Both the position numbers and the translations under genes were made by a program. From an uncultured Ectothiorhodospiraceae bacterium (GTDB taxonomy: Bacteria; Pseudomonadota; Gammaproteobacteria; S012-40), in assembly GCA_945787715.1 (NCBI GenBank), contig CALZJE010000037.1, positions 1-34,045 of the forward strand: a stretch of 34,045 bases of DNA, given 5' to 3'. Shown here in pieces: positions 14,488 to 24,392 of the stretch. Within the stretch, counting starts at the first letter, position 1. Every line of letters starts with the position of its first letter. Under the pieces are notes generated by a model. It saw nothing but the letters and a program-made list of their open reading frames with translations. It was not told the DNA's origin and ran no database searches.

Positions 14488-17400
14488 ATGTTAACAATCT
14501 TGAAAAGTATATCGCTTCTTTCTATTTTAGTGTTTTTAAACGGCTGTAATAGCAGTGACGTTGACTCATCTGGTGAAATTGTTTCTGACGGTAAAAGTTA
14601 TACAATCGGAGGAAGTATTTCTGGTCAGGAGGGAGAAGGGTTAGTCTTGCAATTGAGCGCTGATAACGAAGTAAAACTTGATCGCGGAGGAAAATTTACC
14701 TTTCCAAATGAAGTGCTCAGTGGGGAGGCATTTAAAATTTCAGTCGTCAAACAACCTATTGATCCAGTACAAGAGTGTAGAGTAATTACTCCTACGTTGG
14801 GCGAGGGTATAATGCCAAATTCAAACATTGCAAATGTCGCGATCGTTTGTAATTTTAGTTGGACAAAGCCATCGAGCTTTGATGAAAGCATAAGTCTTGA
14901 TGTTGGAACGCTTTTAAATTATGAAGTAGCAATGAATAAAGACGGAGATGTCATTATCGTCTGGTTACAATCGAATGGAGTTCACAATCAGGTTTATAAA
15001 AGTGAATATCGTAATGGAAAATGGATTCATCCCTCTGGGATAGATGACAGTATAAGTATTAATGATAGCGATGCTTATTATCCCAAAGTTGCACTAAATG
15101 ATAATGGCCTTGCATTAATAACCTGGTATCAAATCGATGATTTAAATCAACAGTATCTTTTAAAAAGTGAATATCTTGATGAGTCATGGTCTCATCCGAA
15201 AAGTCTAAGCGAAAGCATTAGCTTCCCTGAAGAATCTGATGAAGTAGAGTTATTTAATCCTGAAGTAGTATTAAATATACATGGAGATGGGATTATTGTA
15301 TGGGCGCAAAATAATGGAAATCATATGCAAGTTTATAAAAGTGAATTGCGCGCAAGAAATTGGACACATCCCGGTAGTATCGCAGATCATATAAGTGTTC
15401 CTGGTAGCAACACAAGCTCACATAAAGTTGCTTTGAGCAACAATAGTCATGCTGTGATCGTTTGGCAGCAAGCTGGCGATCTTGTAGCGGACAAAGGAAC
15501 CGAACAAATATTTGTTAGTGAATATCGTGGCACTAGTTGGAGCAATCCAAAAGACTTAAAAAACAATGTTAGTTTCGGTCCCACCAAAGCGAAACTCCCT
15601 GTTGTTTCAATAAATAACAGAGGGCATACAGTCATTGCATGGGTTCAATCTGATGGAGATAACGATCATATTTATAAACGTCAATATTGGAGGACTGAAA
15701 ACGAAAAAATTTGGAAATGGTATGAACAGGAGGCGATAGACGAATCGGAACGGATATCGATTCCTGGATCTCACGCAAGCAGCCCGGTGGTAAGAGTGAA
15801 TGATAACGATGAAGCTGTATTGGTTTGGCAATCTGTCAAAGGTGCCGCTGAATATAATCTTTTTCTTATTAAATTTAGTGGAGGAGGGTGGACTGGTGTT
15901 AGTACTCCGAGAAGTAGTTTTACATTTAATTTAACAAGTACCGAAGCTTCTAATTCCGCAAGAGCACCCAGTGTGGCCTTTTCCAATAATGGAACTATTG
16001 TTGTTACATGGTTACAAACAGGGAACGGTTACACTAGTTTACTCAAAGCTGTCTTTTCCTCAGCAGGTGATAGAGTGATTCCGGATACAATTGAGGATAG
16101 TATTTCTTTTGGTGGTTGGCTAACAAGGGATGCTGATAAAGTAAAAATTGCTGTAAGCCAGATTATTAATTGTAAAGATGCAGAAGAAATAATCGAAGTT
16201 GACGATGTGATGAGCGTAACTAATCATATCGTCAAATGTAATGGTATTGAAGAAAATATTAAAGTTGATAGCATAGGGAAAATAGTTGAATTTGATAAAG
16301 AGAATAAAATCACAAACTTTGTTGTTAAATGTGATAACGCCGTAAAGAAAACCTTGGTTAATGAATTAAACAATCCAACTAGCTATATAACCAATTGCAA
16401 AGACACAGTGCAAAAATTCTTAAGCGATGAAGAATTTAATAACATTGCAAAGAGCGAAAAAGATGTATTGACTCCGATGAGTGCTTTAGCAGAAGGTAAG
16501 GTTGAGCTTGCCAACAATGGAGATGGAATCATTATATGGTCTCAGCAAACTAGCTCTGATTTCGGTAAAAAGCTTTTTGCCAGTGAGATAAGAACGCAAT
16601 CACGCACCTCGAAATATTCAATTGGGGGGATGGTTGTTGGAATGGTTGGTTCAGGTTTGATTTTGCAAAACAACGACGCGGATGATCTGTCAATATTGGA
16701 AAATGGCAATTTTCGATTTTTTAATCGGTTGAAACAAGGCGAAACTTACTCTATCAGTGTAAAGCAGCATCCCACAAATCCCAGGCAAATATGCAATGTC
16801 AAAAACTCTTTCAATACGGTAGCTCGAGGGAATGTTTCGACAGTATATGTTAGTTGCGAAAATGATATTAGTAATGCGACGGTGGTCGAAATTGCTACTA
16901 TTGATGGTGGAAACTTTGTCGGTGCGACTATCGATGAAGAGGATAATATCTACATTTCTGACAGGAATAATTCTAAAATAGTTAAGTATGAAGCTAATGG
17001 AACATTAACTACACTAGTTGATAATATAACATTTGTACAAAACTCTGCAGAGTTAATGGTTTCAGGAGATAATCTCTATTTTGTGAACAACGCAACTCCT
17101 TCAGGAAGCGTTTTTCAAATTGATCTTTCTTCGTCAATATACCCGATAGATTTTTCAACGCTTACCCCACTGGCCTGGTCTGAAAATTTATTTGATATTT
17201 CAGACATTGCCACTGATGATTTAGGAAACTTATATGTCTCAATGTTTAAAATACAAGAGCAAGATGCGAAAATTTTAAAAATAACAGCAGAAGGTGTCAT
17301 AGATAATCCAAAATTTAGCGTAGTAAATGGTAATTGGTTAACTTTAACTAATGATCAAGAAAATATTTACATTTCAGAACGTGATAATATATCTCAAATA

Positions 17401-17652
17401 AATTTGCGTGGTGATAAGTCTACCATTATGGCGGGCTTGAGTGAGCCTTTAGGCATATTTTATAGAAACGAGTCTGTATACTTTATCGATAATGAAAAAG
17501 TTTATAAAGTCACCCCGCACTTAGGTGTTGTTGAACAGTTATTTGATAGAATTAAATTGCCGGAGATAGGGAATGTACGATTGTTGGTTAATTCCAATAA
17601 TCAAGTACTTTTACTGTCTAATAATAAAATATGGAAAATTCAAAACAACTAA
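14488..17652 (+). CDS. Large mosaic lipoprotein with repeated propeller-like blades and a C-terminal NHL-like region
   Basis: This is a surface or periplasmic protein of 1054 residues. A lipoprotein signal ends in LNGC (Cys20). Residues about 38-122 form a small beta domain (YTIGGSISG, then EGLVLQL and two cysteines, Cys97 and Cys121). A second copy follows at about 710-793 (YSIGGMVVG, GSGLILQNNDADDL); this domain is common in bacterial lipoproteins that carry NHL or Kelch repeats. Between the copies are eight blade-like repeats of about 55-60 residues with a core [IV]-x-W-x-Q (IIVWLQ, LITWYQ, IIVWAQ, VIVWQQ, VIAWVQ, VLVWQS, VVTWLQ, IIIWSQ), four-residue DSIS-type turns and YKSEYR strands. 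A ~100-residue cysteine-repeat insertion (557-660) splits blades 7 and 8. Residues 800-1054 look like an NHL-type propeller (DEEDNIYISDRNNSKIVKYEANG). No catalytic residues are seen; binding or adhesion is an inference. Confidence 0.85.
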   Translation: MLTILKSISLLSILVFLNGCNSSDVDSSGEIVSDGKSYTIGGSISGQEGEGLVLQLSADNEVKLDRGGKFTFPNEVLSGEAFKISVVKQPIDPVQECRVITPTLGEGIMPNSNIANVAIVCNFSWTKPSSFDESISLDVGTLLNYEVAMNKDGDVIIVWLQSNGVHNQVYKSEYRNGKWIHPSGIDDSISINDSDAYYPKVALNDNGLALITWYQIDDLNQQYLLKSEYLDESWSHPKSLSESISFPEESDEVELFNPEVVLNIHGDGIIVWAQNNGNHMQVYKSELRARNWTHPGSIADHISVPGSNTSSHKVALSNNSHAVIVWQQAGDLVADKGTEQIFVSEYRGTSWSNPKDLKNNVSFGPTKAKLPVVSINNRGHTVIAWVQSDGDNDHIYKRQYWRTENEKIWKWYEQEAIDESERISIPGSHASSPVVRVNDNDEAVLVWQSVKGAAEYNLFLIKFSGGGWTGVSTPRSSFTFNLTSTEASNSARAPSVAFSNNGTIVVTWLQTGNGYTSLLKAVFSSAGDRVIPDTIEDSISFGGWLTRDADKVKIAVSQIINCKDAEEIIEVDDVMSVTNHIVKCNGIEENIKVDSIGKIVEFDKENKITNFVVKCDNAVKKTLVNELNNPTSYITNCKDTVQKFLSDEEFNNIAKSEKDVLTPMSALAEGKVELANNGDGIIIWSQQTSSDFGKKLFASEIRTQSRTSKYSIGGMVVGMVGSGLILQNNDADDLSILENGNFRFFNRLKQGETYSISVKQHPTNPRQICNVKNSFNTVARGNVSTVYVSCENDISNATVVEIATIDGGNFVGATIDEEDNIYISDRNNSKIVKYEANGTLTTLVDNITFVQNSAELMVSGDNLYFVNNATPSGSVFQIDLSSSIYPIDFSTLTPLAWSENLFDISDIATDDLGNLYVSMFKIQEQDAKILKITAEGVIDNPKFSVVNGNWLTLTNDQENIYISERDNISQINLRGDKSTIMAGLSEPLGIFYRNESVYFIDNEKVYKVTPHLGVVEQLFDRIKLPEIGNVRLLVNSNNQVLLLSNNKIWKIQNN

Positions 17653-20104: not shown

Positions 20105-20704
20105 TTAATGATAGCTGCGCATTTGTCCTACAAGTTTACCTTGAATTTGAACACGGTTAGCATCATATTCCATCGGTTGCATATCAGAATTAGCAGGATG
20201 AAGAATTATCTTACTGTTTTTGTATTGAATGCTTTTAAGAGTAGCTTCGTAATTATCAATTAAAGCTACGATAATATCACCGTTTTTCACAACAACTGTT
20301 TGTTCAATTACCACCCAATCTCCGTCGTATATTCCTTCATTGATCATAGAATCGCCGACAATTTTTAAAACAAAACAGTTTTGCTTGCTACGCAGATGAT
20401 CAGGGACCTGGATAGGTTCAGGATTTTCTAAAGCTTCGATGGGGCTGCCTGCTGCAATTTTACCTAACAGTGGTAAAGTGTCTGGGTGAGCGGATTTCAC
20501 CAGTTGAATGCCACGTTGTTTCCCTTTTAAGGGCAGAACTAGCCCTTCATTAATCAAAGCTTGAATATGTTTATGTAAAGAGCCACGTGAAGCCAAGCCC
20601 AATTGCTGACAAAGCTCATCAAGGCTCGGTGCAACATCATTATTTTGGAAGTGATCCTGCAATGCCAGATATATTTCTCGTTGTCGTTTTGTCAGCGTAT
20701 TCAT
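20105..20704 (-). CDS. lexA: LexA repressor, non-canonical DNA-binding domain
   Basis: LexA represses SOS genes and is inactivated by RecA-stimulated self-cleavage. The 199-residue protein has an N-terminal winged helix (MNTLTKRQREIYLALQDHF), the Ala85-Gly86 cleavage site in KIAAGSP, the catalytic serine in VGDSM (Ser119) and lysine in EATLKSI (Lys157), so it is self-cleavable. The recognition helix region reads ASRGSLHKHIQAL (residues 39-50). E. coli has a SPNAAEEHL-type helix there, and alphaproteobacterial LexA has SKSGIHRLI, which is closer. The shared intergenic region with the mrfA-like gene holds a GAAC-N7-GAAC direct repeat and no CTGT-N8-ACAG box. Both point to a different operator specificity from enterobacterial LexA. 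Negative autoregulation through that site is likely. Confidence 0.96.
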   Translation of the reverse strand: MNTLTKRQREIYLALQDHFQNNDVAPSLDELCQQLGLASRGSLHKHIQALINEGLVLPLKGKQRGIQLVKSAHPDTLPLLGKIAAGSPIEALENPEPIQVPDHLRSKQNCFVLKIVGDSMINEGIYDGDWVVIEQTVVVKNGDIIVALIDNYEATLKSIQYKNSKIILHPANSDMQPMEYDANRVQIQGKLVGQMRSYH

Positions 20705-20740
20705 CAGATGTTTGTGCTTTCAATTCAATATGGATTCAAC

Positions 20741-20746
20741 TATAGT
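20741..20746 (+). promoter_or_regulatory. TATAGT -10 element shared by the divergent lexA and mrfA promoters
   Basis: The palindrome ACTATAGT (20739-20746) gives a TATAGT -10 on either strand. For the rightward promoter the best -35 is TTTCAA at 20718-20723 (17-bp spacer), and transcription would start near 20753, at the operator. For lexA the -35 would fall inside the operator. This was predicted by eye. Confidence 0.4.
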
Positions 20747-20751
20747 AACAA

Positions 20752-20770
20752 AGAGAACGTATAGAGAACG
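20752..20770. promoter_or_regulatory. Candidate LexA operator: direct repeat GAAC-N7-GAAC
   Basis: AGAGAACG occurs twice in the same orientation, at 20752-20759 and 20763-20770, exactly 11 bp apart. The core is GAAC (20755-20758), seven bases, GAAC (20766-20769), which equals the direct-repeat LexA box known from Alphaproteobacteria. The GAACG half-site is also that of Bacillus-type and some betaproteobacterial LexA operators, although those are inverted. It lies 7 nt before the helicase start codon and 48 nt from the lexA start, placed to block both promoters. That LexA is the ligand is an inference. Confidence 0.6.
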
Positions 20771-20776
20771 AAGAGT

Positions 20777-23218
20777 ATGCATCAAAAGCCACAAATTAGC
20801 CAGCACAAAGAAAGTGGAGTTGACAGGGTTGACTCATTGATTAAACAGATAAAAACAAAATACAAAAAACGAATTACTGGCGAATTTATTACTCAGGCGA
20901 AATCTGCGCGTTATGAGTGTTTCCCGAATGAATTGGATGAGCGAATTCGACATGCACTGCTCTGCAAAAATATAAACCAACTCTATTCTCATCAACGTAA
21001 AGCGTGGGATTCAATCAGAGCGGAAAAAAATACCGTTATGGTAACACCAACCGCATCAGGGAAAACTCTCTGCTATAACTTGCCAGTGCTTCAGGATGTT
21101 ATTCAAAATCAATCAAAAGCGCTTTATCTGTTTCCAACAAAAGCATTATCGCAAGATCAGCAAGCAGAAATATTGGAGTTAAATAAAGCAGGGGATTTAG
21201 GGGTTCGTGTCTCCACGTTTGATGGTGACACTCCGGGCGATGCGCGAAAAGCGGTTCGAATGCATGGTGATATTGTTATCAGTAACCCAGATATGTTACA
21301 TCAGGGAATATTACCTCACCACACCAAATGGGCGCAATTTTTCGAAAGTTTAAAATATATTGTAATTGATGAAATGCACATCTATCGCGGTGTGTTTGGT
21401 TCGCATGTTTCCAATGTGCTACGGCGTCTGTATCGTATTTGTGAATTTTACGGTGTCCGACCGATCTATGTTTTTTGCTCAGCCACTATTGCTAATCCTG
21501 AACAACTTGCAGCTCAGCTTTGTGGTCAAGCTGTAAATCCCATTACAGAGAGCGGTGCGCCGCAAGGCAAAAAACATCTGCTGTTCTGGAATCCTCCAAT
21601 GGTTAATCCTGAACTGGGGATTCGCGCATCAGCGCGTTCGCAGAGCACACGTATTGCAAGAATGGCAATAAAAAGCGGTTTAAAAAATATTGTATTTGCG
21701 CAATCGCGCATCATGGTTGAAGTGATTACTAAATATCTCAAAGATGTTTTTGATAAAGATCCACGCAAGGCGCCACGCGTTCATTCTTATCGCGGTGGTT
21801 ATTTGCCTAATCAACGTCGCTCGACTGAAAAGAAAATGCGTGAAGGGCAGACGGATTGCGTGGTAGCAACATCGGCGTTAGAGCTAGGGGTTGATATTGG
21901 AGCCCTTGATGTGTGTGTTCTTAATGGATATCCCGGAACAATCGCAGGAACATGGCAGCGTTTGGGTAGAGCAGGGCGGCGTAATCAAACGGCGTTAGGG
22001 ATCATAATCGCAAACAGTTCTGCGTTGGATCAATATATTATTCAACATCCTGAATATTTTATGGGTAATTCGCCGGAACATGCGCGTATCGACCCAGACC
22101 AGCTTTTGATATTGATGGATCATATTCGCTGTGCTTCTTTTGAATTACCCTTTAAAGATGGCGAGTCTTTTGGTGAGAATGAGGTTGATGAATTTCTTCA
22201 TTATCTTCAGGATGAAGGTGTACTGCATCACGAAGCTCGACATTGGCATTGGATTGCCGATGCATATCCTGCTAACTCCGTAAGTTTACGTTCTGTTGCG
22301 GAAGGGAATTTTGTTGTAATAGACACCACGGGCGGCAAGCAGGAAGTGATTGCCGAAGTTGATTACCACGGTGCAGCTGAAACCATTTACGAAGGTGCAA
22401 TCTATTTGATACAAGCTGAACCCTGGCAAGTGGAAAAGCTCGATTGGGTAGGGCGAAAGGCATTTGTTACTCAAACGGATGCTGATTATTATACCGATGC
22501 TATTGACTACACCAAGTTGAAAATACTTGCCGATTTTCAGTCGGACCAAAATGAATCGAACCAGGTCGCGCAAGGAGAAGTACATTTGGTCAAGCGCATT
22601 GCCGGTTATAAAAAAATTCGCTACTACACGCATGAAAATGTCGGCTTCGGAAAAGTAAACCTTCCGGATCAAGAGATGCATACGACAGCCGCATGGTGGC
22701 AAGTACGCAGTAAAATCCTCGAACAAACTTTTGCGAGCCGTTGGCAGGCGCTGGATGGTTTTCTTGGAGCTGCCTATGCTATGCATCATGTGGCAGCGCT
22801 CATGTGTATGTCTGAAGCGCGAGATATTGGCAGGGCGGTAGGAAATGGCGATGCGGAATGGTTTGCAACGGTTGGCTCTAATGGCCGAGGTGGCATCAAA
22901 GCATTTAATGGTGATAATGTGGATGTAGAAGCGGCACGCTTTAATCCCACGCTATTTTTATACGATAATTTTCCCGGTGGTTTGGGCATCTCATCAGGTT
23001 TGTATGAGCAACGTCAAAATATTGTAAACAAAGCGCTTGAATTAGTTGGTCAGTGTTCGTGCGATTGCGGTTGTCCTGCCTGTGTTGGGCCGATTTTACA
23101 ATCACAGGAAGAGAAAGAATATTCCCCTAAATCGGTAGCACTTCAGGTCTTGACACTATTTAACGCCCAGGAAAATCAACATGAGTCGATTGAACCAACG
23201 CTTGACGCTATTGCGTAA
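20777..23218 (+). CDS. MrfA-like DEAD/DEAH-box DNA repair helicase with C-terminal cysteine cluster (DUF1998 type)
   Basis: This 813-residue superfamily 2 helicase resembles B. subtilis MrfA (YprA). That enzyme removes mitomycin-type lesions with the exonuclease MrfB, independently of UvrABC. RecA-like domain 1 has Walker A TPTASGKT (90-97), FPTKALSQDQ (Ia), DEMH (198-201) and SATI (235-238). Domain 2 has TSALELGVDIGALD and QRLGRAGRR. The C-terminal MrfA-type region includes FLYDNFPGGLGIS and ends in a metal-binding cluster, CSCDCGCPACVGP (Cys760, 762, 764, 766, 769), expected to bind zinc or an Fe-S cluster. The ATG at 20777 lies 7 nt after the GAAC direct repeat and is divergent from lexA. 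The next gene overlaps its end by 38 nt and encodes the matching exonuclease, which strongly supports the MrfAB assignment over other DUF1998 helicases. Confidence 0.92.
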   Translation: MHQKPQISQHKESGVDRVDSLIKQIKTKYKKRITGEFITQAKSARYECFPNELDERIRHALLCKNINQLYSHQRKAWDSIRAEKNTVMVTPTASGKTLCYNLPVLQDVIQNQSKALYLFPTKALSQDQQAEILELNKAGDLGVRVSTFDGDTPGDARKAVRMHGDIVISNPDMLHQGILPHHTKWAQFFESLKYIVIDEMHIYRGVFGSHVSNVLRRLYRICEFYGVRPIYVFCSATIANPEQLAAQLCGQAVNPITESGAPQGKKHLLFWNPPMVNPELGIRASARSQSTRIARMAIKSGLKNIVFAQSRIMVEVITKYLKDVFDKDPRKAPRVHSYRGGYLPNQRRSTEKKMREGQTDCVVATSALELGVDIGALDVCVLNGYPGTIAGTWQRLGRAGRRNQTALGIIIANSSALDQYIIQHPEYFMGNSPEHARIDPDQLLILMDHIRCASFELPFKDGESFGENEVDEFLHYLQDEGVLHHEARHWHWIADAYPANSVSLRSVAEGNFVVIDTTGGKQEVIAEVDYHGAAETIYEGAIYLIQAEPWQVEKLDWVGRKAFVTQTDADYYTDAIDYTKLKILADFQSDQNESNQVAQGEVHLVKRIAGYKKIRYYTHENVGFGKVNLPDQEMHTTAAWWQVRSKILEQTFASRWQALDGFLGAAYAMHHVAALMCMSEARDIGRAVGNGDAEWFATVGSNGRGGIKAFNGDNVDVEAARFNPTLFLYDNFPGGLGISSGLYEQRQNIVNKALELVGQCSCDCGCPACVGPILQSQEEKEYSPKSVALQVLTLFNAQENQHESIEPTLDAIA

Positions 23219-24392
23219 ACAAGCCGGGCAGGAAGTTTTAAAAGCAAGACAGCTATCCAATGAACAAAGTTTGGCTGATAAGTTACGCCACACACGAGTT
23301 TCTCTGGTTAACCAGCCGAACAAAAAATTATCTGATGATGCACTTGCCAAGCAGGTAAAAGGAGAAGTGCTAAGCGAAGGTTTGATTTATATTAAATCAA
23401 ACTACAGGCTGGATAAACTATACGATAATTACGATGCTAGCCGTTTAAGTGAGTTTCTAAAACTCTGGCCAGAATCTGTTTGTGAAGAAACAAATTCACT
23501 CTTGTTTGTAGATACTGAGACCACAGGGTTATCCAGTGGTGTGGGTACTATTGTTTTTATGCTAGGTGTTGCTGAAATAGAAAACCAGATGGTTATTAAT
23601 CATCAGCTTTTATTGAATGGCTTTCATGGTGAAATCGCCATGTTGGAATGGTTAAACCAAAAACTAAACCAGAAAAAAACACTCGTCAGTTATAATGGCA
23701 AAAGTTTTGATTTACCTTTGTTGGTGTCTCGATATCGCTTGAAACGCATGGCCAGCCCATTGTTAACGCTGGAGCATATCGACCTGGTTCACTGGATTCG
23801 CCGCATGTATCAAAAATATTGGCCAGATTGTCGCCTGCAATCGGCGGAACAATTTTGTCTCAACTTTCACCGCATCAATGATATGCCGGGAGCAGAGGCG
23901 CCTGCGATTTTTTCTGAATTGATTCGAGAAGGTAAAACGGATCGCCTAAATCCACTCTGTCAGCATCATCAGTATGATGTGATTTCATTAATCGCATTGC
24001 TTGATCACGTGGCAAAATGCGTCAATACACCTACAGAAGAGATCTTTAATGTTTACACGACTGCAAACTATTTAGTAAAAAGCAAACGGCAAATACTTGC
24101 ACGTGAGTTACTTGAGCGAAACCGAGATCAAGCGTGCGAAAGAGGTCGATTTTTGCTTGCGACGATTTATCGCCGTGAAAAACGCTGGGCAGAAGCGCTG
24201 GAACTACTTCACCCATTGAGTAACGAAAATTATTCACCTGCTATAGTGGCGTTAGCAAAATATTTTGAGCATAAACAGAAACAACCAGGCAAAGCCCTAT
24301 TGTATGCTGAGTGGTCTTATCAATTGGAACCACATAATCGTCATATTAAACGCATTTTTCGTTTAAAAGATAAAATATCAAATTCCAGATAA
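23181..24392 (+). CDS. MrfB-like DEDD-family exonuclease with C-terminal TPR-like helices
   Basis: The 403-residue protein matches the YprB/MrfB type of ribonuclease-H-like exonuclease. Exonuclease motif I is LFVDTETTGL (Asp111, Glu113), motif II is SYNGKSFDLPLL (Asp177) and motif III is QHHQYDVISL (His262 or His263, Asp266), the DEDDh-type catalytic set. Residues about 310-400 form helical repeats (ILARELLERNRDQ, RRWAEALELLHPL, PGKALLYAEWSYQLEP) that read as tetratricopeptide-like units, as in MrfB. In B. subtilis the pair excises crosslink-type adducts: MrfA opens the DNA and MrfB degrades it. Here the start lies inside the helicase gene (38-nt overlap), so the two are translationally coupled. 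The basic N-terminus (about 1-70) is not recognised. Confidence 0.92.
   Translation: MSRLNQRLTLLRKQAGQEVLKARQLSNEQSLADKLRHTRVSLVNQPNKKLSDDALAKQVKGEVLSEGLIYIKSNYRLDKLYDNYDASRLSEFLKLWPESVCEETNSLLFVDTETTGLSSGVGTIVFMLGVAEIENQMVINHQLLLNGFHGEIAMLEWLNQKLNQKKTLVSYNGKSFDLPLLVSRYRLKRMASPLLTLEHIDLVHWIRRMYQKYWPDCRLQSAEQFCLNFHRINDMPGAEAPAIFSELIREGKTDRLNPLCQHHQYDVISLIALLDHVAKCVNTPTEEIFNVYTTANYLVKSKRQILARELLERNRDQACERGRFLLATIYRREKRWAEALELLHPLSNENYSPAIVALAKYFEHKQKQPGKALLYAEWSYQLEPHNRHIKRIFRLKDKISNSR

Follow-up and report, generated by a model that had tools for sequence, protein, structure and literature searches.

We conclude that the 34,045-nucleotide stretch of DNA analysed here (the window) very probably encodes a RecA-cleavable second LexA that would control a private regulon, consisting of its own gene and mrfAB, alongside the canonical SOS response of the same genome, with binding, repression and induction predicted from sequence. 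The features on which this reading depends are as follows.

20105-20704, minus strand: second LexA (LexA2), 199 aa, class A, direct-repeat lineage; assigned by TIGR00498, Pfam, alignment and tree
20723-20737, minus strand: possible decayed mirror operator, ATTC-N7-ATTC; a weak candidate, from its position only
20740-20747, no strand assigned: palindromic TATA element, CTATAG within ACTATAGT; from the sequence and mirrored relatives
20753-20769, plus strand: operator GAGAACGTATAGAGAAC, a GAAC-N7-GAAC direct repeat; from the sequence, matrix and conservation
20777-23218, plus strand: mrfA (yprA family) helicase, divergent from lexA
23181-24392, plus strand: mrfB exonuclease, overlapping the 3' end of mrfA

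Elsewhere in the window, a large lipoprotein-like ORF with repeated segments (14488-17652, 1054 aa) adjoins recJ.

The start of lexA (20704, minus strand) and the ATG of the mrfA helicase (20777, plus strand) are separated by a gap of only 72 bp (20705-20776). As the initial annotation had reported, AGAGAACG occurs twice in this gap (20752-20759 and 20763-20770), 11 bp apart from start to start, and CTGT-N8-ACAG is absent, with zero occurrences in the whole window and the closest core in the gap carrying two mismatches in eight positions. The GAAC-N7-GAAC core occupies 20755-20769; read toward lexA, the operator is GTTC-N7-GTTC, and it lies 7 bp from the mrfA ATG and 48 bp from the lexA start. 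GAAC-N7-GAAC by itself is expected 0.71 times per 34 kb and occurred at least once in 48 of 100 shuffles, so its presence in a single window alone proves nothing. The longer form GAGAAC-N5-GAGAAC, with zero mismatches, has just two occurrences across the 4.4 Mb of the genome. Using a 19-bp matrix derived from 41 sites of relatives, with the window site excluded (training median 25.3), the operator scored 24.5 out of sample, and the runner-up position in the 34-kb window scored 10.5. The other exact GAGAAC-N5-GAGAAC (G000 C15:71796-71812; L077, L203) has a score of 18 and lies about 200 bp ahead of a 120-aa gene without known function; we claim it as no target. A permissive repeat pattern allowing two mismatches gave no surplus over its reversed control in the window's own genome and, consequently, mismatched matches were not taken as a regulon.

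What excludes a chance origin is that the motif is kept before the same gene in relatives. A first set of 13 gammaproteobacterial relatives (L003-L014 and L044) was chosen by LexA similarity (49-56% identity), with L015 excluded because its start was cut off, and all 13 have GAAC-N7-GAAC or GTTC-N7-GTTC before lexA, several having both. Genome surveys brought the class A LexAs, defined by a recognition region like SRGSLHKHIQAL, to 39 distinct proteins, and this footprinting bore out conservation of the motif: the N7 repeat precedes 33 of the 39, no alternative spacing between N3 and N12 precedes more than one, and CTGT-N8-ACAG precedes none. The promoter of G280, counted among the six without the repeat, does carry a mirrored pair a little farther upstream of the start codon that our script had picked. 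Canonical LexA promoters, by comparison, carry CTGT-N8-ACAG in 11 of 13 cases and the direct repeat in none of the 13. The N7 repeat was also found in 17 of 19 promoters of class B LexAs (helix, for example, SKGVVHRHVQAL), a count confined to loci that came from the protein search alone and were fetched regardless of motif, since counting class B loci found via the motif would have been circular. The initial description of an alphaproteobacterial-style operator is therefore sound, as the arrangement matches the published GTTC-N7-GTTC (PMC8565304, PMC3323433) and is kept before lexA in relatives.

At ten class A loci the operator is doubled into a mirrored pair, GTTC-N7-GTTC and GAAC-N7-GAAC separated by 11-18 bp, flanking an apparent -10 region (TAGAAT, TATACT) whose position between the two operators matches that of the window's TATA element. 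The window itself has one strong repeat, the mrfA-proximal half, and no full mirrored pair. An ATTC-N7-ATTC lies 17 bp from the strong site across ACTATAGT, a spacing shared by several relatives; it scores poorly with the matrix (913 of 68054 window positions are higher) and weakly suggests a degraded mirror operator. From its sequence, the TATA element at 20740-20747 is a candidate common -10 region of both divergent genes; promoter calling on the gap returned no consensus promoter at this element. A class-wide scan of 369 genomes with the pattern GTTCN7GTTC-N6..26-GAACN7GAAC found 29 sites in 27 genomes, compared with one for the reversed pattern used as control. By matching coordinates to our LexA and MrfA tables, 24 of the 29 were assigned to lexA homologues, five of these 24 being common to a divergent mrfA; one further site belongs to an unlinked mrfA (G108), one precedes a pol IV-like gene (G248) and three are without a clear target. 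No clear SOS gene was seen at the scan sites in G115, G161 and G270 (C8). In G248 it is the polymerase gene itself that has the mirrored pair; the genes for pol IV-like Y-family polymerases adjoin class B lexA, a second branch of the direct-repeat type, or have operators in common with it (L140, L313, L289).

The window LexA exceeds the TIGR00498 cut-off (179 bits against 110.95) and contains both LexA_DNA_bind (PF01726) and Peptidase_S24 (PF00717) domains, with the recognition region SRGSLHKHIQALI (helix SRGSLHKHIQ). It retains the cleavage site A85-G86 and catalytic residues S119 and K157, all invariant in the alignment, and by homology should undergo RecA-driven self-cleavage. It is not a canonical gammaproteobacterial LexA, having no CTGT-N8-ACAG, no NAAE-type helix and a position outside the canonical clade, and it has the GTTC-N7-GTTC of a direct-repeat LexA at its own promoter. 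Our tree unites classes A, B and C in one clade (support 98/91) separate from canonical LexA, and this direct-repeat lineage is represented in many Gammaproteobacteria. The nearest outgroup of this clade is the LexA of SAR11 (93/82, slightly below the star threshold), whose gene is preceded by GAACATTGGTAGAAC and which is not nested within the A/B/C clade; with SAR11 as the sole Alphaproteobacteria in the tree, the lineage may have originated either by common descent or by transfer from Alphaproteobacteria. Window-type LexA occurs in only three of 13 genomes of the order, and the window protein pairs with the second LexA of G019 (99/85). Among other class A genomes, G265 has three class A LexA genes (C1:3108205, 3917626 and 4153788), two with equal scores and possibly identical, and several genomes in which the class A lexA locus does not include mrfA have short UmuD/LexA-like genes adjacent to and divergent from that lexA (L044, L278, L280, L286).

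The mrfA product matches the YprA/MrfA structure 6znp (phmmer, E 3.8e-214) and has the MrfA Zn-binding domain MZB, while falling under the NCBIfam TIGR03817 cut-off; the mrfB product, with an RNase_H_2 domain, matches the MrfB structure 8un9 (phmmer, E 5e-28), and the two genes presumably form an operon. MrfA is present in 15 of the 369 genomes, and class A LexA was found in 11 of these 15 but in only 12 of the 354 without MrfA (Fisher p ~4e-12, in counts that treat related genomes as independent). Nine of the 11 genomes with both have class A lexA adjacent and divergent to mrfA. Within the window's own family, MrfA and class A LexA are found together in G000 (the window's genome, a draft from which genes could be missing), G019 and G023, and neither is seen in G018, G022, G026 and G028. 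Where lexA and mrfA are on separate contigs, in G108, mrfA has a mirrored pair of its own, GTTCTCTCTCCGTTC and GAACCGAAGGAGAAC, scoring 21-22, whereas three genomes with MrfA and without class A LexA have no such mrfA site (best scores -2 to 4.4). This pattern holds only in part for G155, where mrfA is likewise not linked to the class A lexA and has nothing better than a poor site scoring 6.6. Because mrfA is missing from about half of class A genomes, it is not the sole reason for having a class A LexA.

Does this operator mean that the SOS response of the organism has been rewired? The initial annotation had proposed that its LexA switched operator class, and this proposal was overturned, although the operator itself stands. 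The same genome encodes another LexA:

C30:4034-4621: canonical LexA, 32% identical to the window LexA; helix RSPNAAEDHLRALE

Its gene is preceded by TACTGTATATAGTAACAGTA, and CTGT-N8-ACAG boxes occur in this genome before canonical lexA, recA, imuA and two integron integrases. In the tree, the window LexA is of a different, well supported lineage, which coexists with a retained canonical LexA; judged at recA, imuA and canonical lexA, it is not a global SOS regulator here. The canonical LexA pairs with its counterpart in G019, a member of the same family (100/99), and, as each of the two proteins groups with a G019 LexA, we consider both native to the family. The integrase boxes are near-perfect and lie right before each gene (G000 C220:2390-2409, L108; C34:35644-35663, L112); both integrases are above the TIGR02249 cut-off, one being just 272 aa.

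It follows that an SOS response now run via GAAC-N7-GAAC sites is very improbable for this organism. An operator of that class, conserved at lexA, is indeed what such a switch predicts, but the canonical boxes in the same genome refute it unless C30 is contamination, and the tree speaks against contamination by placing the C30 protein beside a LexA from its own family. Absence of the repeat from other SOS genes, which the initial annotation itself had named as counting against its reading, holds for recA, both in this genome and in most relatives, which were compared at recA only: no exact direct repeat was found at recA among the readable promoters of 13 relatives and of another 23 genomes carrying a class A, B or C LexA. 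A switch of this kind may nevertheless have taken place in G162 and G270, two genomes of one family, in which the near-consensus AAAC-N7-GAAC at recA scores 20 and 24 and a search at E 1e-15 revealed no further LexA. According to a published proposal, divergence of an additional LexA comes first, and this LexA assumes control of the regulon once the primary one is lost (PMC8565304); the recA sites of these two related genomes fit such a take-over after loss of the first LexA. Extra consensus sites in G162 were rejected as SOS targets because they sit in repeated copies of an apparent IS30-like element; the consensus repeat GAACAAAAAGAGAAC, present in several of these copies (L376-L380), would mislead a plain motif scan.

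A simpler explanation is that the repeat is purely autoregulatory, LexA2 repressing itself with mrfA just adjacent. Many class A LexAs retain the repeat without mrfA nearby, and in most genomes the operator occurs almost exclusively at lexA, as this explanation would have it, but it accounts poorly for an operator just 7 bp from the mrfA ATG, for the strong LexA/MrfA co-occurrence and recurrent divergent linkage and, above all, for the unlinked mrfA of G108 with its own mirrored pair, and we therefore regard it as unlikely. The G108 site and the position of the window operator between two starts both fit the control of both divergent genes that had been predicted initially. That the repeat is bound by a regulator other than LexA2 is scarcely credible, as the motif tracks this lexA lineage over dozens of loci despite differing neighbors, which is what autoregulation predicts, and alphaproteobacterial LexA is reported on the same motif (PMC8565304).

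We therefore favor the private regulon, in which a LexA2 dimer would bind the two same-orientation GAAC half-sites, whose spacing of 11 bp, roughly one helical turn, puts them on the same face of the helix. Bound beside the common promoter region, LexA2 would keep both its own transcription and that of the divergent mrfAB operon repressed. RecA filaments assembled on damaged DNA would trigger self-cleavage of LexA2 at A85-G86, like that of canonical LexA, releasing mrfAB and allowing more repressor to be made. The main SOS genes (recA, canonical lexA and imuA) would be separately controlled by canonical LexA through CTGT-N8-ACAG, and the common RecA signal would couple the two circuits. Recognizable LexA2 operators stand before lexA2 and mrfAB, whereas recA has none. 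Release of MrfAB upon damage makes sense, since in Bacillus subtilis it acts on mitomycin adducts by a route that does not depend on UvrABC (PMC11194089). Whether the same holds more broadly, that is, whether a widespread, hitherto undescribed gammaproteobacterial LexA lineage with mirrored GTTC-N7-GTTC operators runs tiny private damage regulons (mrfAB, or a pol IV-like polymerase in another branch) parallel to canonical SOS and is able to take over recA upon loss of canonical LexA, seems to us an evenly balanced question.

Neither direct-repeat LexA motifs nor cells with two LexAs are new. Pseudomonas putida has two lexA regulons per cell, those of LexA1 and LexA2, the latter controlling imuA-imuB-dnaE2 through a different motif. 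As in the present case, a canonical LexA is accompanied by a diverged one that has its own motif and controls a small private set of genes, but here the partner is mrfAB, the motif is a GAAC direct repeat and imuA has a canonical box. Alphaproteobacterial LexA shares the half-site, direct orientation and N7 spacing with the LexA2 described here (PMC8565304, PMC3323433); it is reported as the SOS regulator, whereas LexA2 is an extra gammaproteobacterial LexA with a very small regulon and often mirrored repeats. Direct-repeat or alphaproteobacterial-type LexAs also occur in other phyla outside Alphaproteobacteria, namely in Acidobacterium, where acquisition from Alphaproteobacteria is stated in a title cited in PMC3323433, and in Balneolaeota, where the direct repeat has a different sequence (PMC7739468, in part); cohabitation with a canonical LexA is not described for either in that title and those portions of text. 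The mrfAB genes here form a helicase-exonuclease pair like Bacillus subtilis MrfAB (YprA/YprB), with the difference that lexA is divergent from mrfA, while the B. subtilis MrfAB papers PMC11194089 and PMC12458937 make no mention of LexA. The literature searched, which included few subscription papers, yielded no gammaproteobacterial direct-repeat LexA lineage associated with mrfAB.

If our reading is true, MrfAB would be under a damage-responsive repressor of its own, and a single cell would read one RecA signal through two LexA circuits whose operators do not overlap. How LexA operators change could also be tested in this lineage, as there are several genomes with both LexAs and two, G162 and G270, in which only the direct-repeat LexA was found.
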